A stretch of 32,761 nt of DNA from an uncultured Clostridia bacterium. Lineage in GTDB: Bacteria; Bacillota; Clostridia; TANB77; CAG-508. The notes beneath the pieces are model-generated. The model made no database searches, was not told the DNA's origin, and worked only from the letters and a program-made list of their open reading frames with translations. Shown here in pieces: positions 19,617 through 31,248 of the stretch (positions are counted from its first letter, which is position 1; the number at the start of each line of letters is the position of its first letter). The position numbers and the translations under genes were made by a program. The stretch covers positions 1 through 32,761 of the forward strand of contig CALXAV010000020.1 of the NCBI GenBank assembly GCA_944386385.1. Reading direction: 5' to 3'.

Positions 19617-19651
19617 AAGCTGTTTTTTGGGACGGGGTCAAAAAACAGCTT
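19617..19651. repeat. REP palindrome family 1, copy 1 (beside RAYT)
   Basis: Perfect 12-bp arms AAGCTGTTTTTT / AAAAAACAGCTT surround the loop GGGACGGGGTC. It lies five bases after the U32 stop and touches the RAYT stop codon. This copy and the one at 20480 carry GGGACGG, where the other four read AGGACGG in the same sense. Confidence 0.95.
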
Positions 19652-20426
19652 ATTTATTTTCTCTTATCTTTTTAGCTACACATTCCATTTCTCCTCTTGT
19701 CATGTCTAAAAATTTTCTTGTTTGTATATATTTAATTTTTTTTACATTTTTTAAAAATCTTATTAAATTTATTAAAATATTTCTATTTGAAAAAGCTTCA
19801 AATAAATCTATTTGTTCTTTTTTAATAAATTCTGAAATACCTTGTTTAATTTTATAATCAGTGTTCTCCTCAATGTCATCAAAAACATAATCAGTATAAA
19901 CATTATTAATTATATCTTCATAATCACTTTTTGAAAAAATTTCATTCTCCATTAGTTCATTATTTAAATTTTTTTGTCTATAATTATTATATGAAGAATA
20001 TTTATACGCTCCACATTCTTTTACAATTCCTGCTTTTACTGGATTTAGATGTATATATTTTATACAATTAATAAAATATTTTTTACTTGTAATAGGCTCA
20101 CTCACATACCTATCCCTAAAAACATAACCTTTTCTTCCATCTTTCATATAATTATAGTATCTAGCATATAAACAATTTATGTCATGCATTGCTTTTGATA
20201 AATTTTGCATTTGGTCAGTGTTTAATAAAAAATGTGCATGATTATCCATTATACAATATGCAATGATTTTTATATTATATTTTTTATAATATTTATTTAC
20301 CAATTTTAAATATTGATTTTTGTTTCTTTCTTCTAAGAAAATATTTTCTCTATTTATTCCTTGCACAATCACATGAAAAAAAGAGGCTCTATTTATTTTT
20401 CTTGCCGTTCTTGAAATTGTAATCAT
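19650..20426 (-). CDS. REP-associated tyrosine transposase (RAYT, Y1/HUH family)
   Basis: This 258-residue single-strand DNA transposase is of the domesticated IS200-like RAYT class, which cuts and joins at REP palindromes. The HUH motif is DNHAHFLL (His63, His65), the probable catalytic Tyr is 90 or 91 in YARYYNY, and the family segments GRKGYVFRDRY and YIHLNPVKAGIV follow. The N-terminus RTARKINRASFFHVIVQG is typical of the family. All catalytic residues seem intact, so it may be active. It is bracketed by two inverted REP palindromes (19617-19651 and 20480-20506) and by no IS605-type ends. An AAGGAAAG ribosome-binding site precedes the ATG. Four further palindromes in the window are its likely substrates. 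Confidence 0.93.
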   Translation of the reverse strand: MITISRTARKINRASFFHVIVQGINRENIFLEERNKNQYLKLVNKYYKKYNIKIIAYCIMDNHAHFLLNTDQMQNLSKAMHDINCLYARYYNYMKDGRKGYVFRDRYVSEPITSKKYFINCIKYIHLNPVKAGIVKECGAYKYSSYNNYRQKNLNNELMENEIFSKSDYEDIINNVYTDYVFDDIEENTDYKIKQGISEFIKKEQIDLFEAFSNRNILINLIRFLKNVKKIKYIQTRKFLDMTRGEMECVAKKIRENK

Positions 20427-20479
20427 CTCACTTTCCTTATATAAATTTCGCCCCTATTTTTTATCCCTCTGTTTTTGGT

Positions 20480-20506
20480 TGTTTTTTGATCCCGTCCCAA
20501 AAAACA
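20480..20506. repeat. REP palindrome family 1, copy 2 (beside RAYT)
   Basis: TGTTTTTT GATCCCGTCCC AAAAAACA, inverted relative to the copy at 19617. It lies three bases after the RNHCP gene stop and about 55 bases upstream of the RAYT start. The outer stem bases are partly mismatched. Confidence 0.92.
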
Positions 20507-20509
20507 GCT

Positions 20510-20827
20510 CTACATTATTTGTTTACTACTTAATTTTATTATTAAATCCATATTATCATCTTTTGCTGCTTTATTTTTTCTTATTGCTCCACATTTCTTA
20601 CATCTAAATACTATTACATAACCTTTTTTACTATCAATTTCTAAACTTACAGGCTCCAAATCACCATGACAAGTTTCTTGTCTATCTCCTGGCTTTATAT
20701 CAACATGTTTCGAATGTAAGCAATACGGACAATGATTTCTAGAAGAATATCCTAGTTTCGGAACTTTTTTTCCACAGTTTTCACATATAAATTCATCATC
20801 ATTTTTAACAAAATTTTTATGTTCCAT
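20510..20827 (-). CDS. RNHCP-domain zinc-ribbon protein
   Basis: This 105-residue protein opens with an FVKNDDEFICENCGKKV segment (first CxxC pair), continues SSRNHCPYCLHSKHVD (the RNHCP signature and second CxxC) and PGDRQETCHG, and closes with FRCKKCGAIRKNKAA (third CxxC). This order is diagnostic of the RNHCP domain family, whose function is unknown but is suspected to involve nucleic-acid binding. The ribosome-binding site GAGAGGAG is rather far (about 13 bases) from the ATG. It stands between the RAYT locus and an IS200/IS605-like end remnant. It could have travelled with mobile DNA, though the family is widespread. Confidence 0.9.
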   Translation of the reverse strand: MEHKNFVKNDDEFICENCGKKVPKLGYSSRNHCPYCLHSKHVDIKPGDRQETCHGDLEPVSLEIDSKKGYVIVFRCKKCGAIRKNKAAKDDNMDLIIKLSSKQIM

Positions 20828-20876
20828 TTTAATATCGAAACTCCTCTCAAGTAGCTTTTTATATTTTTTATTATTA

Positions 20877-20925
20877 GTGAACTACCAACCACCTAAAGGA
20901 ATGTATGTTTTACGCTTCTAATTTA
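20877..20925 (+). mobile_element. degraded IS200/IS605-like end (remnant)
   Basis: The first 22 bases from GTGAACTACC onward match the copy at 14921, but the right half of the hairpin and the inner segment are scrambled. It is a decayed solo end with the same orientation as the copies at 14921 and 32683. Confidence 0.5.
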
Positions 20926-20947
20926 TAAAATTTTATAATTCTAGGAA

Positions 20948-20978
20948 GATGTTTTTTGACCCCGTCCTAAAAAACATC
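20948..20978. repeat. REP palindrome family 1, copy 3
   Basis: GATGTTTTTT GACCCCGTCCT AAAAAACATC. It begins one base after the stop codon of the minus-strand kinase gene. The outer stem is GATG/CATC where other copies have GCTG/CAGC, a compensatory change. Confidence 0.95.
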
Positions 20979-20979
20979 C

Positions 20980-22620
20980 CTAATATTTAAAATCGCCACC
21001 ACCTACAAATTCTTTTAATAAAGAGTTAGTTGGAACTTCACTTGCTGGAATTGATCTAATGTATTTTAGTATTCCAAGTAATCTTTGTGCTTCTGCATAT
21101 TCTGTTTCATCTTTTGTTATTTCTTTTAACATTGGAGTTGCTAAACCTTTTAATACCCCCAACTCATAAATAAGTGATGTATTAAAAATAATATCAGCAT
21201 CTTCCTGGAATGGGAATATATTTTCAACTTCTCCTCTTGTTACACTTGCCCAACCTTCTATTGTATGTTTTGCTTTATAGCCTCTAAATTGATAATCTCT
21301 TACTATTCTTCTAATTAGCCTTACATCTGAAGATGATACTTTAGTATATCTATCCATATTTAAAACTGTTAAAGCACTAATATAAATCTTAAATTTTTGA
21401 CTCTTTGGAATACTACTTGTTAATTTATCGTTTAAACAATGTATTCCTTCTATAACTAAAACTTCATCTTCTTTTAATTTTAACTTATTTCCTTTATATC
21501 TTTTTGTTCCTTCTACAAAATCAAATTGCGGAATTTCTACTTCTTCACCTGCTAATAATTTTGTTAAATGCTCATTAAATAGTTTCAAATCAATTGCTTC
21601 TATTGCTTCAAAATTATATTTTCCATTTTCATCTCTTGGAGTATCTTGTCTTTCCACAAAATAATTATCAACTGAAATTGTTACTGGTTTAATTTTGTTT
21701 ATTCTAAGTTGTATACCCAATCTTTGTGCAAAAGTTGTTTTTCCTGATGATGATGGCCCTGCAATTAATATCATTTTTATTTTTCTATTTTCTGCTATCC
21801 TATCTGCTATATCTGATATTTTCTTTTCATGTAAAGCTTCATCTATCATAATAACATCTTTAATTGTTTTTTGTTTTACTGCTTCATTTAACATATATAC
21901 TGCATTCATTCCAAGTATTTTATGTATTTCATTATATTCATCAAATGCCCATTTTAATTTTTTGTTTTGCATTAATTTTGGTAATTTATTTGGCTCTTCT
22001 ACACTTGGATATCTAATTATTAAACCTTTGTCATACTTTACAACATCAAATGTCTTGATTACTCCTGTTCTATTTGCCATAATTCCATAACAATAATTAA
22101 AATAATCTTCACAAAAATTCATATAGATTTTTTTATTTGATTTTAACTCAAATTGTAATAATCCTCTTTTTGTATTTTTTTCTTTAAAGAATTTTTCCGC
22201 CTCATCTCTATTCATTGTTATTTTTGTTATTGGTAAGTCTTGTTTAACAATCTCTCTCATCTGTTTATTTAGTTCTTTTATAATTTCTTCTGTTACAAAA
22301 ATATCTCCAATATCACAATATATTGCATTTGCCATCTGATAGTTTACTGTTGCTCTATTATCAGGAAATATTTTTCTTAATGCTTTTGCAAAAATAAATA
22401 TTAATGTTCTTCTGTATGTTCTTAATCCTTCTTTTGTAGAAATATCTAATAATTCTATTTTCCCATCTTCATCTATTTTCTCATTTAAATCTACATATTC
22501 ATTATTATATATTGCACCTACTACTGTATATTCACTCTTTTCTATTTCTTCTTTTAGTACCTCTGCTATTGTTTTTCCCTTTTCTACTTCAATCTTTTTA
22601 TCTTTATATTGTATCTTCAT
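20980..22620 (-). CDS. nucleoside kinase (uridine kinase-like) with N-terminal TGS-like domain
   Basis: This 546-residue protein joins an N-terminal TGS/ubiquitin-like segment (about 1-60) and a threonyl-tRNA-synthetase-like second domain (about 70-200) to a C-terminal P-loop kinase of the uridine kinase/phosphoribulokinase class. The Walker A motif is GPSSSGKT (288-295), followed by SVDNYFVERQDTPRD and the VIEGIHCLN segment. This domain order marks the Firmicutes and Thermotoga nucleoside kinase family. ATP-dependent phosphorylation of a nucleoside, probably uridine or cytidine for salvage, is the family expectation. AAGGAGG lies seven bases before the ATG. The gene is followed at once by a REP palindrome. 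The substrate is not fixed by the sequence. Confidence 0.9.
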   Translation of the reverse strand: MKIQYKDKKIEVEKGKTIAEVLKEEIEKSEYTVVGAIYNNEYVDLNEKIDEDGKIELLDISTKEGLRTYRRTLIFIFAKALRKIFPDNRATVNYQMANAIYCDIGDIFVTEEIIKELNKQMREIVKQDLPITKITMNRDEAEKFFKEKNTKRGLLQFELKSNKKIYMNFCEDYFNYCYGIMANRTGVIKTFDVVKYDKGLIIRYPSVEEPNKLPKLMQNKKLKWAFDEYNEIHKILGMNAVYMLNEAVKQKTIKDVIMIDEALHEKKISDIADRIAENRKIKMILIAGPSSSGKTTFAQRLGIQLRINKIKPVTISVDNYFVERQDTPRDENGKYNFEAIEAIDLKLFNEHLTKLLAGEEVEIPQFDFVEGTKRYKGNKLKLKEDEVLVIEGIHCLNDKLTSSIPKSQKFKIYISALTVLNMDRYTKVSSSDVRLIRRIVRDYQFRGYKAKHTIEGWASVTRGEVENIFPFQEDADIIFNTSLIYELGVLKGLATPMLKEITKDETEYAEAQRLLGILKYIRSIPASEVPTNSLLKEFVGGGDFKY

Positions 22621-22692
22621 AATCTTCCTCCTTTTTGTACTAATCTATTTTATCTTAAATATTTATATTAGTCAAATATTAAATATCCAATC

Positions 22693-22721
22693 TTGATACA
22701 TTTATGTAAATATGGTATAAT
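22693..22721 (+). promoter_or_regulatory. promoter of cassette B
   Basis: TTGATA at 22693-22698, 17 bp, TATAAT at 22716-22721 with extended -10 (TGG). Confidence 0.85.
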
Positions 22722-22727
22722 TAAGGA

Positions 22728-22799
22728 CGCATGAAGGTTATTTTAATACCTTCCGGTCAATTTCGGAGGGTAGTCCTCCGAATGATATTATCAAGGAGG
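22728..22799 (+). promoter_or_regulatory. structured leader with competing Shine-Dalgarno pairing (cassette B)
   Basis: Hairpin 1 pairs GAAGGT with ACCTTC. Hairpin 2 pairs TTCGGAGG (22762-22769) with CCTCCGAA (22775-22782). The CCTCC at 22775-22779 is also complementary to the real Shine-Dalgarno GGAGG (22795-22799). The leader could therefore switch between a hidden and a free ribosome-binding site. Pairing is read from the sequence; switching is inference. Confidence 0.5.
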
Positions 22800-22804
22800 A
22801 TAAC

Positions 22805-23080
22805 ATGAAAATGACAATTAGAGAACTTGTTGAGGCTGGCGAGTTTACTGTCAAAAACTATGGTGATTATGGTAGAAACTAGAAGTATCGTTTTCACTGC
22901 ACAGATAAGAACACCGTTCTCATCTCAGGTGACGTGTTCGGCGATGATGAGATTCTCATTCTCAATTCTCTTGAGGTACTCTATTGTCTTGCCAAAGGTA
23001 ACATGAGCTTTTCTGTGAAGCTGCAAGGTGGTTTGTCAATTCCCTTTGACACTCCTTCTCTCGAACTGAAAAGCAAATAA
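22805..23080 (+). pseudogene. short unrecognised ORF interrupted by an amber codon (cassette B)
   Basis: An ATG six bases after AAGGAGG opens a 91-codon frame that closes with TAA at 23078-23080 but holds TAG at codon 26 (22880-22882). Ignoring that codon, the product would begin MKMTIRELVEAGEFTVKNYG and continue after the stop with KYRFHCTDKNTVLISGDVFG, ending SLELKSK. Codon use on both sides of the TAG is the same C/G-ending style as cassettes A and C, so the frame was one gene. A CAG-to-TAG or TGG-to-TAG change explains it simply; readthrough is the alternative. No function is recognised. The unit keeps an excellent promoter, leader and terminator. TAG serves as an ordinary stop in neighbouring genes. 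Confidence 0.7.
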
Positions 23081-23086
23081 ACCTTT

Positions 23087-23123
23087 CTAAGAGGGGCGAC
23101 CACTAACTGGTCGTCCCTCTTAG
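23087..23123 (+). terminator. strong terminator-like stem of cassette B
   Basis: A 16-position stem (arms 23087-23102 and 23108-23123, one G-U pair, loop CTAAC) lies seven bases after the stop, with TTTG after it. The stem is very stable, but the T-run is short. Confidence 0.75.
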
Positions 23124-23143
23124 TTTGTATTTTACAAATTTGA

Positions 23144-23173
23144 GGAATAAAGCTTCTTATTTTGGATATACTT
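23144..23173 (+). promoter_or_regulatory. possible forespore sigma (F/G) promoter of the SspH-like gene
   Basis: GGAATA (23144-23149), 17 bp, TATACTT (23167-23173) resembles the sigma-G pattern (TGAATA, 17-18 bp, CATACTA). The fit suits a spore protein gene but is imperfect. Confidence 0.4.
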
Positions 23174-23206
23174 TATAATGATACCATTTTAAAGGAGGCT
23201 ACATAT

Positions 23207-23380
23207 ATGAATATAGAAAGAATAAATGACATTTTATCTCATGATGAAAAGTGTGATGTGTTTTATAATGAAAGAGTTGTATGGATTCAAGGTGTAAATA
23301 GTGATATTGCCAAAATTGGTTTTGTTGATAATTTTGAAGAAAGAAATGTTCCTATAAGTGACCTTTATGAAAAAAAATAA
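23207..23380 (+). CDS. H-type small acid-soluble spore protein (SspH-like)
   Basis: This 57-residue protein starts MNIERINDILSHDEKCDVFY, contains VVWIQGV and ends with a VPISDLYEKK segment. The order (N-terminal helix ending at ILS, then a V-x-YN-x-x-x-VWI strand, then an x-VP-x-x-DL tail) is that of H-type SASPs, minor spore-core proteins made in the forespore. The start at 23207 is chosen because AAAGGAGG lies nine bases before it; an upstream in-frame ATG at 23162 lacks such a site. It has a forespore-type promoter candidate and its own terminator. It supports a spore-forming host. Confidence 0.82.
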   Translation: MNIERINDILSHDEKCDVFYNERVVWIQGVNSDIAKIGFVDNFEERNVPISDLYEKK

Positions 23381-23398
23381 ACTATTTATCTTTTATAA

Positions 23399-23441
23399 AA
23401 AGAGATTTAAAGTTATATAAAACCTTAAATCTCTTTATTTT
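23399..23441. terminator. intrinsic terminator after the SspH-like gene
   Basis: A 12-bp stem AAAGAGATTTAA / TTAAATCTCTTT is followed by ATTTTTA on the plus strand. It lies 18 bases after the stop and could also serve the converging GlyRS gene. Confidence 0.8.
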
Positions 23442-23446
23442 TATGT

Positions 23447-23477
23447 GCTGTTTTTTGACCCCGTCCTAAAAAACAGC
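23447..23477. repeat. REP palindrome family 1, copy 4
   Basis: GCTGTTTTTT GACCCCGTCCT AAAAAACAGC, 12 bases after the GlyRS stop (minus strand). Confidence 0.95.
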
Positions 23478-23489
23478 AAAACATTATTA

Positions 23490-24872
23490 TTAAAATTCTA
23501 TTTTTTCTTCTATCCAGTTTTCTAATTCTGATATTTTAACTCTTACTTGTTCCATAGTATCTCTATCACGAATTGTAACCGTTTCATCTTCTAAAGTATC
23601 AAAATCTATTGTTACACAGTATGGCGTTCCTATTTCATCTTGTCTTCTATAACGTTTTCCTATACTTCCTGTTTCATCATAATCACACATGAATTTCTTA
23701 GCTAATTTATCATAAACTTCATTTGCTTTTTCTGACAACTTCTTAGAAAGTGGAAGTACTGCTACTTTATATGGTGCTAATGCTGGATGTAAATGTAATA
23801 CTGTTCTTACATCTCCTTCTGCTATTTCTTCTTCATCATATGCGTCACATAAGAATGCTAAAACTACTCTATCTGCTCCTAGTGATGGTTCTATTACATA
23901 TGGTACATATTTTTCATTAGTTTCTGGGTCTTGATATGTTAAATCTTGTTTTGAATGTTCCATATGTCTTGATAAATCATAATCAGTTCTATCAGCAATT
24001 CCCCAAAGCTCTCCCCAACCAAATGGGAAATTAAATTCTATATCTGTTGTTGCTTTACTATAGAATACTAATTCTTCTTTACTATGGTCTCTTAATCTTA
24101 TATTTTCTTTTTTCATTCCCAAGCTTAATAACCATTTTTCAGAATAATCTTTCCAATATTTAAACCACTCTAAATCAGTTCCTGGCTTACAGAAGAATTC
24201 CATTTCCATTTGTTCAAATTCACGCATTCTAAATATAAAGTTTCCAGGTGTTATTTCATTTCTGAATGCTTTACCAATTTGTGCAATTCCCATTGGTATT
24301 TTCTTTCTTGATGTTCTTAGTACACTTTTAAAATCAACAAAAATACCTTGAGCTGTTTCTGGTCTTAAATATATTTCTGATTTTTTATCTTCTGTTACCC
24401 CTTGAGATGTTTTAAACATTAAGTTGAATTTTCTTATATCTGTAAAATTAGTTTTTCCACAATTAGGACAAGGAATTTTATTTTCATTAATAAAATCTAT
24501 TAATTCTTTTTCACTCATTCCATCTGCTATCATATCTTTTCCTTGTTCATGTGCCCATTCCTCAATTAATTTATCTGCTCTATGTCTTGTTTTACATTCC
24601 CTACAGTCTATTAATGGATCTGAAAATCCTCCAACGTGTCCTGATGCTACCCAAGTTTCTGGGTTCATAAGAATTGCAGCATCTAATCCTACTACATTTT
24701 TTTGTTCTTGAATAAATTTCTTTCTCCAAGCATTTTTAACATTGTTTTTTAATTCATTTCCAAGTGGTCCATAATCCCAAGTATTTGCTAATCCTCCATA
24801 AATTTCTGAACCTGGATAAATAAATCCTCTGTTTTTACAAAGTGCAACTAAAGTGTCCATTGAATCTAACAT
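23490..24872 (-). CDS. glyS: glycyl-tRNA synthetase, dimeric eukaryote/Gram-positive type
   Basis: This 460-residue class II synthetase charges tRNA-Gly. The N-terminus [20 protein letters not shown] and the [11 protein letters not shown] stretch are typical of the alpha2 type. Zinc-ligand Cys pairs lie at 90/93 (DCRECKTRH) and 135/138 (CPNCGK). Motif 2 is seen in [25 protein letters not shown] and motif 3 in the [12 protein letters not shown] segment, followed by the anticodon-binding domain ([10 protein letters not shown] onward). Length is normal. A T-box leader lies upstream, so uncharged tRNA-Gly induces expression. The start ATG follows AAGGAGG. It is the last gene on its transcript, with a REP palindrome just beyond. 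Confidence 0.97.
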
Positions 24873-24896
24873 AAAAATTCCTCCTTCTCTTAGCTA

Positions 24897-25085
24897 AGAA
24901 AAAAACTTTCCTCCTTAGCTAAACTATAATAACTTAGCTAGGGACGAAAGTCTCTCCGCGTTTCCACCCTATTTCCTAAATTAGAGAAATTCTAATTTAA
25001 GCACCTCAATTTTAAAGTTACTCCAAAGCTCCCCATACTTATTTATTGTAAGTATTCCACCATCACTTACTCTCTATAAATAAAT
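24897..25085 (-). ncRNA. T-box leader of glyRS
   Basis: On the minus strand the T-box core AGGGTGGAAACGCG (complement 24957-24970) is followed by a terminator stem with arms starting ACTTTC and ending GAAAGT (24903-24952) and then a T-run, just before the glyRS ribosome-binding site. Upstream (about 24990-25085) is the stem I region with AGAGAG and GGTGG elements. Binding of uncharged tRNA would favour the antiterminator. The glycine specifier triplet is not assigned with confidence. The promoter is probably near 25090-25125 (TTGAAA...TAAAAT), imperfectly spaced. Confidence 0.88.
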
Positions 25086-25185
25086 TTTACAAGTATTTTT
25101 TCTTTTTCAACGTAACAAATATTTATTTAGTTTCATATATTTTATTATGATATAATAAAAAAGTCAATAAAATTTGTTAAAATTG

Positions 25186-25214
25186 TTGATAAATTATTTT
25201 TTTTGTGTTAATAT
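25186..25214 (+). promoter_or_regulatory. promoter of tRNA-Trp
   Basis: TTGATA (25186-25191), 17 bp, TAATAT (25209-25214) with extended TGT, about 20 bases before the tRNA. Confidence 0.6.
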
Positions 25215-25234
25215 AATAACTGTGTTTCAAATAT

Positions 25235-25309
25235 AGGGGTATAGTGTCAATGGTAGCACATCGGTCTCCAAAACCGCCTGTGTGGGTTCGAATCCTACTA
25301 CCCCTGCCA
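25235..25309 (+). tRNA. tRNA-Trp (CCA anticodon)
   Basis: The cloverleaf has acceptor arms AGGGGTA / TACCCCT, discriminator G and an encoded CCA (25307-25309). The anticodon loop reads TCTCCAAAA, giving anticodon CCA for tryptophan, and the T-loop is TTCGAAT. It is a single tRNA gene with its own promoter and terminator, divergent from the glyRS T-box leader. Confidence 0.96.
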
Positions 25310-25320
25310 ATAATTAATTT

Positions 25321-25362
25321 ATAGGGAATAAAACTAAATGTTTTGTTCCCTATTTTATTTTT
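25321..25362 (+). terminator. terminator of tRNA-Trp
   Basis: Arms ATAGGGAATAAAAC (25321-25334) and GTTTTGTTCCCTAT (25340-25353), with one mismatch, are followed by a T-rich run. The ATG at 25338 lies in its loop, which argues against translation starting there. Confidence 0.85.
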
Positions 25363-25388
25363 TTCTTTTATTCAAGGAGGTGTTTTCT

Positions 25389-25967
25389 ATTAACAAAATT
25401 TTAAATGCTATTATTATTTTTATTCTATTTTTTACTTTATTTATTTGTATATTTTTTATTCCTACTCTTGGAAATTCGAATATTTCTAATTCTATTCCTT
25501 CTGAAATAATTGATTTTAATCCAGATGGTTTTGTATGGCCTCTTCCTGGTTACACGCGTATTAGCTCTTATTTTGGAAAAAGAGTATCTCCTACTTCTGG
25601 TGCTTCTTCTTCTCATTCTGGAATTGATATTCCTGCACCTCAAGGTACTAATTTTATTGCTGTAGCTGATGGCGAAATTACATTTAGACAGTTTTTAGGA
25701 GCTGGTGGCTATACTATTACCCTTTCTTTTTCAAACTTCAGAGTTTCTTATTGTCATTGTGACCCTAACTTTATTGTTAAAGTTGGTGATAAAGTAAAAC
25801 AGGGCCAAATAATTGGTCAAGTTGGTCCAAAGTACGTTTATGGTGTTAAAGGCAATCAATATTCTGACTCTACTGGTAAACCTACAAATGGTGCTACAAC
25901 TGGATGTCACCTTCACTTAGGTATTCGTATTGATGGTAAATATCAAAATCCCTTAGATTTCTTTTAA
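25389..25967 (+). CDS. M23-family (LytM-type) zinc metallopeptidase, membrane-anchored
   Basis: The protein has an N-terminal hydrophobic helix (NAIIIFILFFTLFICIFF), a short linker, then an M23 domain. The zinc motif HSGID (HxxxD) is followed by VADGEI, VSYCHC and the second motif GCHLHLGI with the HxH ligands. M23 enzymes cut peptidoglycan cross-bridges; all ligands are present, so it should be active outside the membrane. The frame opens at ATG 25338, but that codon is inside the tRNA-Trp terminator. The strong AAGGAGG at 25374-25380 points instead to an ATT at 25389 eight bases later, a rare start, or to a GTG overlapping that site. About 192 residues from ATT. It may also depend on read-through from tRNA-Trp. 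Confidence 0.82.
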   Translation: MNKILNAIIIFILFFTLFICIFFIPTLGNSNISNSIPSEIIDFNPDGFVWPLPGYTRISSYFGKRVSPTSGASSSHSGIDIPAPQGTNFIAVADGEITFRQFLGAGGYTITLSFSNFRVSYCHCDPNFIVKVGDKVKQGQIIGQVGPKYVYGVKGNQYSDSTGKPTNGATTGCHLHLGIRIDGKYQNPLDFF

Positions 25968-25970
25968 TTT

Positions 25971-25999
25971 TTGAATTTTATGTAAAATTATGATATAAT
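25971..25999 (+). promoter_or_regulatory. promoter of cassette C
   Basis: TTGAAT (25971-25976), 17 bp, TATAAT (25994-25999) with extended TGA, starting three bases after the M23 stop. Confidence 0.85.
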
Positions 26000-26055
26000 A
26001 TATGTATTGCAATTGTATTAGCCAAAGCATAGGTAAACGTTCTTAGGAGGAATAA

Positions 26056-26418
26056 ATGGCTACTCAAGTCGGTATATCCTTTTCTACTGTCTATCGTGGT
26101 CACGAGCCTTATCACAAAATCTTTTTTTCTAACTCCAATAGTTATTTCATTGCCAATTATGGGTGCTACTGCTACCCCAATGGCATTCTAGTCTTGGATG
26201 CTACCTGTAGTAATTTCTCTAGCAAGCACATTATCAAGCTTCTGTGTGGTTGCTTTGAGAAAGATAGCGATTTCAACGAGAAAATGAAGCTTATTCTTGG
26301 AGAACATACTGTGAAGGCTATCGTTATCGATATAGATGGTGTTCCAATTATGATAAGTCAATTTAACCACAATGCTGACAAGATTTATACCATCTGGTCT
26401 GAATCTCACAACAAGTAA
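26056..26418 (+). CDS. unrecognised 120-residue protein (cassette C)
   Basis: The product begins MATQVGISFSTVYRGHEPYH and has a hydrophobic, Cys- and Tyr-containing middle (NYGCYCYPNGILVLDATC, then IIKLLCGCF). A short second half predicts a beta-hairpin (TVKAIVIDIDGVPIMISQF) and it ends SESHNK. It has no signal peptide and no convincing membrane helix. AGGAGG lies six bases before the ATG. Codon use is C/G-enriched, unlike the adjacent M23 and EF-P genes, and the promoter and terminator are private. A nine-base inverted repeat (AGCCAAAGC at 26020-26028, GCTTTGGCT at 26440-26448) brackets the ORF. No family is recognised; it is grouped with cassettes A and B by architecture, not by sequence. 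Confidence 0.75.
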   Translation: MATQVGISFSTVYRGHEPYHKIFFSNSNSYFIANYGCYCYPNGILVLDATCSNFSSKHIIKLLCGCFEKDSDFNEKMKLILGEHTVKAIVIDIDGVPIMISQFNHNADKIYTIWSESHNK

Positions 26419-26473
26419 GTTGAAGGAGTGGAACAATTAGCTTTGGCTCACATCGCAGGCTAACTAGCCCTGC

Positions 26474-26505
26474 AAAAAGAGTCACCCTTTCGGGTGGCTC
26501 TTTTT
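26474..26505 (+). terminator. intrinsic terminator of cassette C
   Basis: AAAAAGAGTCACCC TTTC GGGTGGCTCTTTTT, with one wobble pair. A second smaller hairpin (GGCTA/TAGCC) precedes it. Confidence 0.92.
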
Positions 26506-26536
26506 ATTGTTTAATATTTACTTGTATTTTTACATA

Positions 26537-26585
26537 GATGTGTCCCAAATGCGAATTTTTTTGCGCAAAGGAAACGTCCCCAACG
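26537..26585. repeat. REP-like repeat family 2, copy 2
   Basis: It shares GATGTGTCCCAAA and AAAGGAAACGTCCCCAA with 10046-10073. Here a 17-base GC-containing insert (TGCGAATTTTTTTGCGC) separates the halves. It lies five bases from the stop codon of the minus-strand gene at 26591. Confidence 0.75.
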
Positions 26586-26590
26586 CGAAA

Positions 26591-27049
26591 TTACATATCG
26601 TCGTCTTCATCTCCGCATCCAGAACATCCATGGCAATCACCATTACAACCATCTGGGTCATCATCAACATCTCCAGACCAATCTAGTTCTATCATGTTTT
26701 TACATTCTGGACATTCCACTTCTGTTTTGTTTTCATCTACATCTATAAAAAATTCATAATTACAATAAGGACAAGTAATTTCAAAATCAAATCCTTCGTC
26801 ATATATATCTTTTTCTATATTGTTTATTACTTGTTGCATTTTAGACATTCTTTCTTCTATTTGCTTTTGAGTTTTTTCTAATTTATCAATTTCTTCTTTT
26901 TTATAATCCATTATGTTATCAATTTGGTCTAACATGACATCTAAAAAACTTGCAAATCTTCCCTTTACATAATCCAAGTCTTCTTTATTTTTCATGTTTT
27001 TTTCTATGTCATCTAAAAAACTCTTATATTCGGTTTTGATTGTTCCCAT
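26591..27049 (-). CDS. coiled-coil/zinc-ribbon protein linked to efp (CD1247 N-terminal-domain type)
   Basis: This 152-residue protein has an alpha-helical, coiled-coil-like N-terminal half (about 1-85), then a zinc ribbon with CPYC (about 94-97) and CPEC (about 114-117), and an acidic Cys-rich tail (DGCNGDCHGCSGCGDEDDDM). Clostridia commonly keep a gene of this layout directly after efp, annotated in C. difficile as the CD1247 N-terminal-domain protein; its role is unknown. It starts 18 bases after the efp stop, so it is in the same operon. The Cys/His-rich tail (five Cys within 12 residues) may bind extra metal. The naming is from memory and moderately sure. Confidence 0.75.
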   Translation of the reverse strand: MGTIKTEYKSFLDDIEKNMKNKEDLDYVKGRFASFLDVMLDQIDNIMDYKKEEIDKLEKTQKQIEERMSKMQQVINNIEKDIYDEGFDFEITCPYCNYEFFIDVDENKTEVECPECKNMIELDWSGDVDDDPDGCNGDCHGCSGCGDEDDDM

Positions 27050-27067
27050 AAATAATAATCACCTTTC

Positions 27068-27634
27068 CTAAATTCTTTCCATATATTCACCTGTTCTAGT
27101 ATCTATTTTAAGAATATCTCCTATATTTACGAATAATGGAACTTGTATTTCTAATCCAGTTTCTAGTTTAGCTGGTTTTCCTGATGTTGTTGTAGTATTT
27201 CCACTAAATCCTGGTTCTGTATATGTAACTTCTAACTCAACAAATGTTGGTGGTTCTACTGCAAATACATTTCCTTTATAAGAAAGCATTGTTACTTCCA
27301 TATTTTCTTTTAAATATTTTAAACAATCTCCTAATTGGTCTTCATTTAATGGAATTTGATCATATGTATCATTATCCATGAAATAATATAATCCTCCATC
27401 ATTATATAAATATTGCATTGCTTTCTTTTCAATTTCTGCTGCTGGGAATTTATCTGATGGGTTAAAAGTTTTCTCTAATGTTGCTCCTGTTATAACATTT
27501 TTTATTTTTGTTCTAACAAATGCTGATCCCTTTCCTGGTTTTACGTGTTGAAATTCTACAACTCTATAAACATTTCCTTCCATTTCAAATGTTGTTCCAT
27601 TTCTAAAATCTCCTGCTGAATATACTGATGCCAT
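27068..27634 (-). CDS. efp: translation elongation factor P
   Basis: This 188-residue EF-P binds between the P and E sites and relieves ribosome stalling at polyproline. The three beta-domains are recognisable. The modification loop is [12 protein letters not shown], with Lys35 (in PGK) at the position that carries a 5-aminopentanol group in B. subtilis. Domain II has [16 protein letters not shown], and domain III ends with the signature [17 protein letters not shown]-like ([13 protein letters not shown]) and [12 protein letters not shown]. The start at 27634 is preferred to one six codons earlier because AAAGGAG lies eight bases before it. A promoter is visible upstream, and a zinc-ribbon gene follows. 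Confidence 0.97.
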
Positions 27635-27672
27635 AATTATTTCTCCTTTCATTTCTTTAATTAACTTTATCT

Positions 27673-27701
27673 ATTTTACTACATTTTTTAATAAAAATCA
27701 A
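27673..27701 (-). promoter_or_regulatory. efp promoter
   Basis: On the minus strand TTGATT (complement 27696-27701), 17 bp, TAAAAT (complement 27673-27678). It lies between the REP palindrome and efp. Confidence 0.65.
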
Positions 27702-27723
27702 TATATACTTTTATTTATCTTCT

Positions 27724-27754
27724 GCTGTTTTTTGACCCCGTCCTAAAAAACAGC
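27724..27754. repeat. REP palindrome family 1, copy 5
   Basis: GCTGTTTTTT GACCCCGTCCT AAAAAACAGC, 22 bases after the M24 peptidase stop and upstream of the efp promoter. It is identical to the copy at 23447. Confidence 0.95.
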
Positions 27755-27776
27755 ACCCAAAAACAACATTTTACTT

Positions 27777-28835
27777 TTATATTATAATATAATTTTTCTC
27801 AGATTTGGTTAAACTTATACAACCAAATTTTGTTATTTGTACTGTATCTTCTATTCTTACACCAAATTTTCCTGCTATGTAAATTCCTGGTTCATCTGTT
27901 ACTACCATATTTTCTTTAAGTTGTGTATCTGTTCTATAATTAATATATGGTGCTTCATGTATTTCCATTCCTACTCCATGACCTAAGCTATGAATTAAAT
28001 CATATCCATTTAATTTAAAATCATTTTCTACCATCTTTGTAAGTAATCTTGTACTTTCTCCATCTTTCATTTCTTCTAGTGTTTGGACTTGATTTTTTAA
28101 TACTAAGTCATAAACTGGTTTTACATATTCTGGTACACTTCCTACAAAGAATGTTCTTGTCATATCTGAACAATAACCATTTACAATACAACCCATATCT
28201 ATTGTTATTATATCTTGTTCTTGTATTTTTCTATCTGTTGGTACTGCATGTGGCATTGAAGTATTCTCTCCTGAAGCTACTATTGTTTCAAATGCTAAAC
28301 CATCAGTTCTTTGTTTATAATATTCTTCAATCTCCTCTGCTATTTGCTTTTCTGTCATTCCTGGTTTTATATATGTTAGTAAATAACTAAAGCAATTATC
28401 TGTTATTTCACATGCTTTTTCTAAATTCGAAATTTCATCTTTATCTTTTATCATTCTTTGTCTTTCTATAATATGCTCTGTTTCTACTAAATTATTAATT
28501 TTATATTTTCTTATTAATTCTTTATAGTCTGCATATGTAACAAAATATTCTTCAAATCCTACATTCTCACAGAACATAAAGAAATTTTCATAATCATCAC
28601 TTGATACATCATTTATATCATATACTATAATCTCATCATACAATGTAAGAATACTATGTACATGTTCTATATATCTTCCATCTGTTATAAATATATTATC
28701 TTTTCTTGTAAGTAACAACGTCCCTTCTGCATCTATTCCAGTTAAGTATTTTATATTAGTTGGATTAGATATTATTAATCCTTGTAAATCTAAGCTTGAC
28801 ATCGTGTTCCTTAACCATTGTAATTTAGAATTCAT
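27777..28835 (-). CDS. M24-family Xaa-Pro aminopeptidase/dipeptidase
   Basis: This cytoplasmic dinuclear-metal peptidase of about 352 residues removes residues N-terminal to proline. A creatinase-like N-terminal domain (about 1-125) precedes the pita-bread catalytic domain. The five metal ligands are visible: Asp in TIDMG, Asp in YCSDMTRTF, His in SLGHGVGME, Glu in VTDEPGIY and Glu in VRIEDTV. The ATG at 28835 is chosen because AGGGAG lies eight to nine bases before it; an in-frame ATG nine codons earlier lacks a good site. In many Firmicutes this gene (pepP/yqhT) directly precedes efp, as here. The REP palindrome separates it from efp. Confidence 0.93.
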   Translation of the reverse strand: MNSKLQWLRNTMSSLDLQGLIISNPTNIKYLTGIDAEGTLLLTRKDNIFITDGRYIEHVHSILTLYDEIIVYDINDVSSDDYENFFMFCENVGFEEYFVTYADYKELIRKYKINNLVETEHIIERQRMIKDKDEISNLEKACEITDNCFSYLLTYIKPGMTEKQIAEEIEEYYKQRTDGLAFETIVASGENTSMPHAVPTDRKIQEQDIITIDMGCIVNGYCSDMTRTFFVGSVPEYVKPVYDLVLKNQVQTLEEMKDGESTRLLTKMVENDFKLNGYDLIHSLGHGVGMEIHEAPYINYRTDTQLKENMVVTDEPGIYIAGKFGVRIEDTVQITKFGCISLTKSEKNYIII

Positions 28836-28874
28836 ACAATCCATCTCCCTAATTTTTTTCATTTAATATAATAT

Positions 28875-29630
28875 TTATTTTAAATTATACATTCCAAGTG
28901 TAAATATTTGTAGTAATACATTTTTTATCTGTTCAAATGGCACATACATACTAATAAATGTTCCAATTACTATAAATGGTCCAAATGGTATATATTCGCT
29001 TGATTTTTTTATTTTACTAACTAAAAGAATAATACTAAGAATTGCTCCTATTAAGAAAGACATTAAGGTAATGGCAATTATATTTGATAATCCAAAATAT
29101 AATCCAAGTGCTCCCATTAATTTTACGTCACCAAACCCCATTGCTTCTTTTCCATAAAAGATTCCACCTACTAATGTTATAAGTAAGAAAATTCCTCCAC
29201 CTGCAAGCATTCCAAGTAACATATTTATTGTTATTGCTACATCTGATAGTCCATAAAGAAATGCAAATATAATTCCTACTTCAAATATTGTTAAATTTAG
29301 TCTATTGGGTATTATCTGTTCTCTATAATCTATAACAAAAACTGATAGTAACATTGGTGTTAAAATAATATATTTTATTAAATCTAAATTTGCAATAATG
29401 GTATCTTTTATTCCAAACACATATATTAAAGTAACATATATTACTGCTGTTAATAACATTAATATATAATTTGGTTTAAAGTTTAATTTATGTTCTGTAA
29501 AAAATTCTCTTGAAAAGAATTTCTTATATTCTGGAAGTCTTTTATTAGCCCAATTAACCAGTTCTCCTACAAACAATCCTAAAATTGCTGCTATAAAATA
29601 GTATGCTATATGTACGTCATTTATATACAT
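28875..29630 (-). CDS. prepilin peptidase (A24 family)
   Basis: This 251-residue polytopic membrane protein is an aspartic leader peptidase that cleaves type IV prepilin signals after Gly. The two catalytic Asp are in VIDYREQIIPN and in GFGDVKLMGALGL, the diagnostic GxGD motif. Several transmembrane helices fill the rest. The N-terminal region lacks the CxxC pairs seen in many PilD methylase domains. It starts 18 bases after the YqeG gene stop. The prepilin-like protein at 7502-8926 is a plausible substrate, although no pilus ATPase or platform gene is in the window. Confidence 0.9.
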   Translation of the reverse strand: MYINDVHIAYYFIAAILGLFVGELVNWANKRLPEYKKFFSREFFTEHKLNFKPNYILMLLTAVIYVTLIYVFGIKDTIIANLDLIKYIILTPMLLSVFVIDYREQIIPNRLNLTIFEVGIIFAFLYGLSDVAITINMLLGMLAGGGIFLLITLVGGIFYGKEAMGFGDVKLMGALGLYFGLSNIIAITLMSFLIGAILSIILLVSKIKKSSEYIPFGPFIVIGTFISMYVPFEQIKNVLLQIFTLGMYNLK

Positions 29631-29648
29631 TTTATTATTTCTCCTTCG

Positions 29649-30134
29649 TTATCTTTTTTTTATTTTTTGTTTTATTTTATTTTCAATTGGTCTTTTCCAA
29701 GCTGTATACCAAAAATCTTTTTCTTCTAATGAATCAACCAATATTGTATGCATTTTACATCTATTTCCACCAATTATATCTGTAAATATTTGGTCTCCTA
29801 CAACTGCAATATTAGAAGGCTCTTCTCCTAACATCTTAGCTGCCTTTTTCAACCCACTTTTTAATGGTTTTTTTGCAAAAAGTATATATTTTATCCCTAA
29901 CACATTAGATATTTTTTCTACTTTTTCTTTTTTATTACTATTTGATACAATAATTAATTTTACTCCTTGTCCTTTTAATTCTTTTGCCCATTTTTCAACT
30001 CTTTCAGGCATTTCTAAATCATAATTTATTAATGTATTATCCATATCTAATATTAAAGCTTTTATCTTATTTTTTTGTAAATATTCAATTGTTATTTTTT
30101 CTATTTTATCAAAATAATCATTTGGATAAATCAT
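29649..30134 (-). CDS. YqeG-family HAD IIIA phosphatase
   Basis: This 161-residue HAD-superfamily protein shows motif 1 LDMDNTL (nucleophile Asp30, acid Asp32), motif 2 IIVSNSN, Lys in AKKPLKSG and motif 3 VVGDQIFTDIIGGNR. It matches YqeG of B. subtilis in length and order. Related proteins dephosphorylate phosphatidylglycerophosphate in organelles and some bacteria, so a lipid or sugar-phosphate substrate is possible but unproved. The start at 30134 is chosen for GGAGG five bases upstream; the frame is open for 30 more codons without a better site. It begins the run leading to the prepilin peptidase. Confidence 0.9.
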   Translation of the reverse strand: MIYPNDYFDKIEKITIEYLQKNKIKALILDMDNTLINYDLEMPERVEKWAKELKGQGVKLIIVSNSNKKEKVEKISNVLGIKYILFAKKPLKSGLKKAAKMLGEEPSNIAVVGDQIFTDIIGGNRCKMHTILVDSLEEKDFWYTAWKRPIENKIKQKIKKR

Positions 30135-30252
30135 TTCTTCCTCCATAAGCCAATATATCAAATATATATTATCAATATGGTCCTTTTTTGTCAAGAAAAA
30201 CAAGGAAATCTTCCTAAATTTCAATTAAAAAAACCTTAATAAATGATAACTA

Positions 30253-30293
30253 AAAAAGCACTTGCTAAATAATAAATTTAGTAAATGCCTTTT
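30253..30293 (-). terminator. terminator after the SleB-like gene
   Basis: An imperfect stem (arms near 30258-30270 and 30276-30289, about CTAAAT/ATTTAG at the core) is followed on the minus strand by TTTTTT, 50-90 bases after the stop. Confidence 0.65.
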
Positions 30294-30345
30294 TATTGGT
30301 GTTAAATACTTTTTATTTTCTTTTTATAATTTTGTACTGTTTCTT

Positions 30346-31071
30346 TTATTTACAAAACCTATGTCTACCTATAGTTACAGTCATAGGTCTTGACCAAATC
30401 CATTTGTTTGTTGCAGTTGAAGGATTAAAATAATATATTGCTCCATAAGAAGGATCCCAACCATTTAAAGCATCTTGTGCTGCTTTCTTCGCTGTTGAAT
30501 CTGGTGATAAGTTTATTTGTCCATCTCTTACGGCATCAAATGCACCTGACTGGTATATTACTCCTGATATTGTATTTGGAAATGAGCTGCTTTTTACTCT
30601 ATTTAAAACAACTGCTCCTACTGCTACTTGTCCTGAATATGGTTCTCCCCTTGCTTCACCATAAATTATTCTAGAAAGTAAATTCAAATCACTTGAATTA
30701 CTTGTTGTAGAAGATGATGAACTAGAACTATATATTCCCATTGCCTTCAAAGTTGCAGGACCTGCAATACCATCTACTGTAAGTCCATTTTTTCTTTGGA
30801 AATACTTAACCGCTTCTAAAGTCTGACTACCAAATATACCATCTACATTTCCATTATAATATCCCCATCTTTTAAGTTTTTCCTGTATTTGTCTTACTTC
30901 ATCTCCTCTAGAACCATATTTAGATAATGCATCTACTTCATTGTTATTTGTAAAATACATAAAAATAACAGTTGAAAATAATAAAATTATAAATGTAATT
31001 ACTAAGCCCAATTTTAAACTTTTTTTACCTAAAGTTTTTTCTTTAATTTTTTTGTTTTTTTCTTTAAACAT
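30346..31071 (-). CDS. sleB: SleB-type cell-wall (spore-cortex) hydrolase with peptidoglycan-binding domain
   Basis: This 241-residue protein has a basic N-terminus and a membrane or signal helix (about 21-41). A peptidoglycan-binding type 1 domain follows (about 54-112: GSRGDEVRQIQEKLKRWGYY, then GIFGSQTLEAVKYFQ). A Ser-rich linker leads to a SleB/Hydrolase_2 catalytic domain (about 128-241) with the catalytic Glu in IIYGEARGEP and the SPDSTAKKAAQDALNG segment. SleB is a lytic transglycosylase that degrades cortex during germination. The ATG at 31071 is chosen, eight bases after AGG; a GTG lies three codons upstream. The ribosome-binding site lies inside a long stem (31074-31127). A vegetative paralog (CwlJ/YkvT type) is possible. 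Confidence 0.85.
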   Translation of the reverse strand: MFKEKNKKIKEKTLGKKSLKLGLVITFIILLFSTVIFMYFTNNNEVDALSKYGSRGDEVRQIQEKLKRWGYYNGNVDGIFGSQTLEAVKYFQRKNGLTVDGIAGPATLKAMGIYSSSSSSSTTSNSSDLNLLSRIIYGEARGEPYSGQVAVGAVVLNRVKSSSFPNTISGVIYQSGAFDAVRDGQINLSPDSTAKKAAQDALNGWDPSYGAIYYFNPSTATNKWIWSRPMTVTIGRHRFCK

Positions 31072-31073
31072 AA

Positions 31074-31127
31074 AAATCACCTAAATGATAAAATTTCTTT
31101 TTACTATTTTTATCATTTAAGTGATTT
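31074..31127 (-). promoter_or_regulatory. 20-bp stem enclosing the sleB ribosome-binding site
   Basis: Arms at 31074-31093 and 31108-31127 pair with a single mismatch around a 14-base loop. The AGGTGA Shine-Dalgarno of the SleB-like gene lies in the 3' arm (minus strand), so the leader RNA would hide it. Whether this controls translation or is part of an insertion is not known. Confidence 0.6.
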
Positions 31128-31217
31128 ATTATGCATTTTGTCATTATTTTTATAATTTATAATCTTAATACTTTTTTATGCTAAAATTTTCTTTGCTATT
31201 TTTCCTATTATTTAGTA

Positions 31218-31248
31218 GATGTTTTTTGACCCCGTCCTAAAAAACATC
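31218..31248. repeat. REP palindrome family 1, copy 6
   Basis: GATGTTTTTT GACCCCGTCCT AAAAAACATC, overlapping by one base the stop codon of holA (minus strand). It is identical to the copy at 20948. Between this and the SleB-like leader (31128-31217) only AT-rich sequence is seen. Confidence 0.95.

Follow-up and report, generated by a model that had tools for sequence, protein, structure and literature searches.

How REP-associated tyrosine transposases (RAYTs) keep populations of repetitive extragenic palindromes (REPs) alive and self-matched over the long term, though insertion is rare, is an open question. The subject here is a 32,761-nucleotide (nt) stretch of DNA (the window; positions 1 to 32,761 of contig CALXAV010000020.1, 29.3% G+C) from an uncultured Clostridia bacterium (assembly GCA_944386385.1, here G000), in which a RAYT lies among six 31-nt hairpins. 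Passages of PMC3733652, PMC6006769 and PMC3116915 describe the Proteobacterial systems (TnpA-REP, REPtron, REPIN), which share with this locus a Y1 HUH transposase, flanking REPs, dispersed extragenic palindromes, inverted pairs and 3'-end placement; an introductory passage in this literature puts the persistence of REPs at millions of years. Unlike those systems, the present one has its conserved motif in the loop, its relatives are uncultured Clostridia, and the whole set of repeats differs between species at shared sites. Nor is the GT[AG]G tetranucleotide of GTAG REPs found at the 5' foot, which is mostly GCTG or GATG in G000, with consensus GATG and GGTG in the related genomes G018 and G002.

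Other described families are similar in part. The TIRYT/TIRtron elements (Di Nocera 2013, PMC3733652), to which a passage of Quentin 2018 (PMC6006769) links transposase subclass 2.1, resemble the window system in the Y[IV]HLNP motif, GGGG-type flanking inverted repeats and moderately abundant families; the median length given for these proteins is 238 residues, and the window RAYT has 258. No REP-like sequences are reported beside subclass 2.1 in that part of Quentin 2018, whereas here the flanking repeats are hairpins, at about 30-80 copies per genome in the five repeat-rich genomes counted. The CGTC-tagged REPs described in a section of Di Nocera 2013 share CGTC with the complementary strand of the loop, but here CGTC does not sit at the terminus as a tag, and the repeats come with a transposase. 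In the orthoswitch, as portrayed in passages of Nunvar 2013 (PMC3686654), orthologous RAYTs of related strains have different REP classes. There as here, the REP sequence changes beside an orthologous RAYT, but there old REPs stay and decay as new ones spread, whereas here shared old sites hold the new version.

The hairpins are probably the REP population of the resident RAYT, with sites that are inherited and sequences that are renewed in place as the RAYT lineage diverges. That REP sites persist between species while their sequences change together suggests such renewal, as judged from genome comparison, and this concerted renewal in place, which appears new relative to the published decay model, is the part worth following. 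A literature search that covered few subscription papers returned nothing on these Clostridia REPs or on renewal in place at orthologous sites.

G000 (1.98 Mb in 61 contigs) holds 62 copies of the REP at up to 3 mismatches, against 0 for a reversed-pattern control; a looser scan of its fetched loci yields 63, the basis of several counts below. Related genomes have their own versions, with 44 matches around GGGACGGG[ACG]TC in G056 and 78 around the core GGGACGGAGCA in G055; for example, GGGACGGGGTC in the window contrasts with GGGACGGAGCAA in G055. The copies examined were 63 in G000, 42 of the 44 that a looser search lists in G056, 76 of the 78 that it lists in G055 and about half of the 12 in G010. 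Sites were paired by one-to-one flank matching at an offset of at most 25 nt, with weak one-sided support and second partners excluded (39 G000-G055 and 34 G000-G056 pairs before filtering). The offset is the smallest over a pair's flank alignments, a stricter repeat of the comparison demands both flanks, and the core is bases 18-21. Locus L089 was excluded from alignment A1, and L339, L354 and L371 from A2. Gene positions throughout come from our own open reading frame (ORF) script, not from curated annotation.

G000 and G056 share 30 sites. Orthologous copies there are 2.03 bases apart, compared with 3.28 for shuffled partners, and none of 10,000 shuffles gave a value as low (p<0.0001); the core is identical at 15 of the 30. 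G000 and G055 share 29 sites, at which the distance is 5.97 against 6.09 shuffled (p=0.15) and the core is identical at none, the distances within the genomes being 2.94 and 3.12. Site memory is thus lost between G000 and G055, yet kept between G000 and G056. Tight placement leaves the contrast intact. For G000-G055, the 20 of 29 sites that one flank puts within 2 nt give 5.85 and 5.96 shuffled, with core identity at 0 of 20, and the 15 of 29 that both flanks put there give 5.80 and 5.86, with 0 of 15; for G000-G056, the 24 of 30 that both flanks put within 2 nt give 1.83 and 3.16, with 11 of 24. G056 and G055 behave like G000 and G055: over 20 sites the values are 6.55 and 6.52 shuffled, with core identity at 0 of 20. 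Sixteen sites are shared three ways; at L031, L038 (3041), L022 and L014, G000 equals G056 and G055 is different. Because flank identity to G000 is similar for G056 (89.8%) and G055 (87.2%), time alone explains the loss poorly, though G055 is the farther of the two. The pattern was first seen in 6 REP pairs of G018 and G002, in which orthologues differ by 3.83 bases and shuffled partners by 3.55, against 0.33 and 0.67 within the genomes.

Some shared sites lie inside reading frames. One REP is in frame within spoIIIAF of G000 (L033, 2976-3006), and G055 has a counterpart in an open frame at the corresponding position; each species has its own core there, while the arm TTTCTGGGG, rare in both genomes (1 of 63 copies in G000, 1 of 76 in G055), is kept. 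In a variable-length loop of trmFO, compared in 30 genomes of the genus, G018 and G002 have their own REP versions in frame (Table 1), and G010 has a REP in the region where the frame is disrupted. The form in G024 matches that genome's own family (ATGATTTTGGGGACGGAGG..), the form in G004 is similar, and G022 and G023 show weaker likenesses, which were left uncounted. A tree of trmFO and efp, which leaves out three genomes of the genus that are not among the trmFO loci, unites G002, G024, G018 and G010 in one clade (support 84), and the link to G004 is unsupported. At six loci (L310-L315) with the same neighbour genes as the window RAYT, REPs occur at the same three places, and a REP stands at the position of REP 1. 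At several shared addresses the REP is absent from outgroups: the kinase-RNHCP gap (the REP 3 site) measures only a few nt in G005, G028, G031 and G002 and has no REP there, and the gap before efp (the REP 5 site) has no such REP in 23 relatives, with G028 and G005 among the gaps checked.

Many copies, then, are probably not fresh insertions and have probably kept the same addresses since before the related species split, with dozens of fixed sites shifting jointly, in core and arms, to a new version as the RAYT lineage diverges. The RAYT would nick an old REP hairpin as a single strand, and the nicked REP would then be overwritten or repaired from a current copy in a conversion-like step. We infer identity by descent at each individual site, recognition of the hairpin by the RAYT as single-stranded DNA, and this mechanism of renewal. 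A wider proposal, that a RAYT rewrites lasting REP addresses genome-wide when its specificity drifts, in-frame copies included, and that families may take over each other's gaps, is put forward tentatively, at somewhat less than even chances.

Several observations weigh against inherited sites with renewal in place. Of the 29 sites shared by G000 and G055, 9 show offsets of 4-19 nt even by their best flank, and both flanks put no more than 15 within 2 nt, so that part of the set may stem from separate insertions. In the kinase-RNHCP gap of G055 and MAG313, a repeated AAATATTAA-like sequence precedes the REP and could mark separate events. By flanks, G055 stands at a somewhat greater distance from G000 than G056 does, the branching near G055 is weakly supported (48), and the genomes compared are drafts, mostly metagenome assemblies. 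Re-use of sites by other hairpin families is possible. Finally, no RAYT flanked by their repeat was found in the assemblies of G018 or G002 (each 91% complete), despite many copies; since the REPs of these genomes are homogeneous all the same, present RAYT activity may be unneeded.

This last observation fits homogenisation without the transposase, by RecA-type gene conversion among repeats in which the RAYT plays no part in renewal, an explanation that we regard as unlikely though not fanciful. Blocks of 31 nt are short for RecA conversion. G000 and G056, moreover, retain site memory at a similar divergence, and the differing REP version of G055 accompanies a more diverged RAYT: its protein is 72-78% identical to the five nearest and its gene 81-85%, against 84-89% (nucleotides) among those five and 86-89% (nucleotides) for the flanking genes of G055. 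A RAYT flanked by a REP of the G018/G002 type exists elsewhere (L317, 52% identical to the window RAYT). That REPs might undergo gene conversion was a topic as early as 1988 (Higgins), as indicated by the title of that reference.

Independent insertion at hotspots, in which the RAYT of each lineage re-inserted REPs into the same few tolerated gaps, is likewise unlikely. Seven G000 sites could be located in the G005 stretches, and none has a GGGAC hairpin there. The 29 sites shared by G000 and G055 compare with about 3 expected if some 1,600 gene ends were equally likely (our estimate, for 63 and 76 copies), and coincidence extends to positions away from stops (10 of the 29 pairs, of which one flank or both put 8 within 1 nt) and, with a shared rare arm, to spoIIIAF. 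The site memory of G000 and G056 likewise disagrees with repeated insertion. Hotspots would account for the 9 G000-G055 offsets above 2 nt, and for hairpins of other families in the same gaps, namely the kinase-RNHCP gap of G018 and G004 and the gaps of G024 opposite L130 and L164. Takeover of gaps by other families is suggestive by eye but weak when counted: with a looser motif, 5 of 30 orthologous gaps contain any such hairpin against 49 of 714 gaps (p=0.048; p=0.044 for stem 8 and p=0.075 for stem 9), but with the strict motif the figures are 3 of 30 and 36 of 714 (p=0.19).

Selection site by site, with each REP a signal in RNA or DNA that is read by the RAYT or another factor and point mutations towards the new core selected one site at a time, is improbable. 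It would suit REPs at gene ends, where transcription would reach, the spoIIIAF copy that keeps its arm, and the long duplex (z -12.4) predicted for the one REPIN RNA folded (L132); but selection on the core alone should spare neutral differences in the arms, and the arms too are without significant site memory between G000 and G055 (p=0.15). Intrinsic transcription terminators, suggested by a 3' location and a stable hairpin, are very improbable and were rejected, as the first-pass annotation had anticipated, for at least 6 T in the 8 nt past the 3' arm are found in just 11 of 63 copies and equally in 11 on the opposite strand, so that there is no oriented U-tract, and some copies lie within reading frames and one upstream of the promoter-like stretch of efp.

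The copies of G000, of which 45 stand alone and 18 make up 9 inverted pairs, sit mostly in gaps between genes, with the 5' foot against a stop codon or a ribosome-binding site. The neighbour on the 5' side of a single copy is a stop in 34 cases and a start in 11; 12 of the 14 single copies between convergent genes are nearer to the 5'-side stop, and 20 of the 27 between co-directional genes have the stop on the 5' side. Among 40 usable singles, the 5' foot lies -3 to 13 nt from a stop in 28 and a stop is as close on the 3' side in 2, whereas re-insertion at random positions and orientations gives 5.8 near a stop (standard deviation 1.8; maximum 14 in 20,000 runs). A search of the whole genome, proposed in the first-pass annotation as a check for random placement, thus finds the copies non-random. 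The strictly uniform 3' orientation claimed there gives way to a strong bias: in a second class the same foot abuts a ribosome-binding site (a start follows within 5-30 nt in 6 of 63 copies), there are the inverted pairs, and REP 1, being between two convergent stops, is no clean case of orientation. Copies with the 5' foot at a stop number 38 of 63 in G000, 26 of 42 in G056, 13 of 32 in G002, 25 of 76 in G055 and 14 of 45 in G018, and the corresponding counts for the 3' side are 2, 4, 3, 5 and 0, respectively. The stop codon overlaps the foot by 1-2 nt in 8 of 45 copies in G018 and 9 of 32 in G002. This placement is not new: a passage of Di Nocera 2013 (PMC3733652) already locates REPs within 20 bp of 3' ends and has GTAG REPs supplying TAG stops. 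Because the stretch from stop to ribosome-binding site is the neutral one in tight operons, placement may mainly reflect selection, perhaps with target preference.

The inverted pairs with set spacing that characterise REPINs are present. Variants are shared within the pairs of G000 (p=0.005), and a spacing of 74-84 nt is seen in G018 for 12 of 15 groups and in G002 for 6 of 12. Several pairs in these two genomes span an entire gap, their feet resting at the stop on one side and at an AGGAGG-like site on the other. Single REPs of G000 as halves of decayed pairs were considered and rejected, the inverted remnant exceeding all 40 shuffles in 3 of 45 cases and the control orientation also in 3.

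All six hairpins of the window are present at stop codons as first described (Table 1). On the strand of the upstream gene their form is NNTGTTTTTT-[AG]GGACGGG[GA]TC-AAAAAACANN, a 31-nt palindrome with arms NNTGTTTTTT and AAAAAACANN and a loop that begins GGGAC or AGGAC. The loop, initially taken as conserved, is the same in four copies (AGGACGGGGTC), the other two having the variants GGGACGGGGTC and GGGACGGGATC; at up to 2 mismatches it has 6 matches in the window against 0.62 expected, and 6 were reached in none of 100 shuffles. RNA folding of four window copies gives z from -3.45 to -4.80. Covariation of the outer stem, also noted earlier, is real but partial: position pair 2/30 is CG in 24 of the 63 copies, AT in 15, TA in 1, TG (wobble) in 4 and unpaired in 19 (Fisher p=1.4e-6 for the 46 copies with C/A and G/T). 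Rfam has three matches in the window, none of them at the hairpins.

Table 1. Coordinates of the RAYT, the REPs and related repeats, in window positions unless a locus is named.
Feature	Position	Strand	5' foot to stop (nt)	Context
RAYT (TnpA-Y1, 258 aa)	19650..20426	-		Y1_Tnp domain; between REPs 1 and 2
REP 1	19619..19649	+ (GGGAC on +)	6	Between convergent stops of U32 protein (6 nt) and RAYT (0 nt); 3' flank of RAYT
REP 2	20478..20508	- (GGGAC on -)	1	Past RNHCP stop; about 51 nt upstream of RAYT; 5' flank of RAYT
REP 3	20948..20978	- (GGGAC on -)	1	Past nucleoside kinase stop
REP 4	23447..23477	- (GGGAC on -)	12	Past stop of class II aminoacyl-tRNA synthetase gene
REP 5	27724..27754	- (GGGAC on -)	22	Between M24 peptidase stop and a conserved promoter-like stretch that precedes efp
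REP 6	31218..31248	- (GGGAC on -)	-1	HolA TAG stop ends on the first G of the REP
Separate GGGAC repeat	26536..26590	-		TTTCGCG..GGGGACGTTTCC..GGGACACATCT; outside the REP set; read by eye
In-frame REPs of trmFO	L126 1559-1589; L167 1558-1588; L266			Peptide with VFWDGxKKH

Assignment of the resident gene at the RAYT/REP level, proposed from the start, is secure; its placement in a subclass is provisional. The protein matches Pfam Y1_Tnp (PF01797, 1e-13) and has REPs on both sides; its HUH motif is NHAH and its Tyr motif YIHLNP, and residues N62, H63, H65, Y124, N128 and P129 are invariant across 21 sequences. An AlphaFold model (mean pLDDT 81.7) includes C-terminal helices and has as its top structural match 4er8, a solved RAYT-REP hairpin complex (E 3e-7). 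The score against NCBIfam NF047646 (REP_Tyr_transpos) is 78.7 bits, the cut-off being 80. A C-terminal helix-turn-helix (HTH) domain is a trait of subclass 2.1; no Pfam HTH is found in the window RAYT, and HTH families each match in 1 of 9 relatives (best 3e-4). By the motif table in PMC6006769, the closest class is subclass 2.1, with Tyr motif Y[IV]HLNP and HUH motif NH[VYF]H; YIHLNP fits, and NHAH has A where V, Y or F is expected. The stretch of the window REPs closest to the terminal inverted repeat motif GGGGWSAS, GGGGTCAA, fits at 7 of 8 positions, and the RAYT-C repeat of G000 (GGGGACAC/GGGACACATC) fits or almost fits by eye.

Named relatives of the window RAYT are uncultured Clostridia. 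Among the best 80 of 518 matches kept from a scan of named genomes, close homologues in metagenome-assembled genomes of Clostridia are 67-81% identical, and all seven of the closest (L310-L316) have a version of the repeat at the locus, some with another core, so that absence of the repeat from genomes with this RAYT was not encountered among them; the converse exceptions are G018 and G002. Among 55 RAYT loci scanned (scan matches of our choosing plus two loci of the G000 search; a 56th, G010:C40, is without intact motif), outward-foot hairpins lie on both sides in 20, on one side in 18 and on neither in 17, and none has the reverse orientation only. Per hairpin, 35 upstream and 36 downstream face outward, against 5 and 2 the opposite way. 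The arms vary from RAYT to RAYT, and in 3 of the 20 two-sided loci GGTTCC replaces GGGAC. At L085, L104, L141 and L272, RAYT-flanking hairpins have GGTTCCGGGTTT in the loop in place of GGGAC. The G010:C40 locus (L270) contains a window-type RAYT (about 50% identity) split into two frames, possibly a dying RAYT in a genome with 12 REP matches.

Other families of GGGAC hairpin are also present. Hairpin matches number 45 in 394 kb of G024 (1 when shuffled) and 9 in 413 kb of G005 (0 when shuffled). Several distinct GGGAC families occur in G024 alone (L290-L309), several as inverted pairs, and from about 7075 of L298 a longer unit bounded by inverted GCCAA-type hairpins occupies the gap in which G018 has a REPIN (L130). 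G000 itself has four Y1_Tnp matches, and two of the other loci (C9 and C4) have adjacent GGGAC repeats of different sequence, seen by eye and unscored by the flank scan. The separate repeat of the window (GGGGACGTTTCC/GGGACACATC) belongs to a second RAYT family and lies directly after a 152-residue ORF (26591-27049); it also flanks, on both sides, an interrupted RAYT at C4:59391. This ORF has no Pfam or NCBIfam match and was dropped as a candidate transposase.

If genome-wide rewriting by the RAYT is correct, this enzyme would be more than a slow transposase, namely a sequence-specific editor by which a family of sites is held uniform. The same REP addresses with different versions across species would allow the RAYT, RecA or selection to be distinguished base by base as the rewriter. 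The findings would also widen the known range of REPs, taking in Clostridia that have received little study (many of their records, to judge from the titles, are from animal guts) and a transposase subclass reported to lack REPs.

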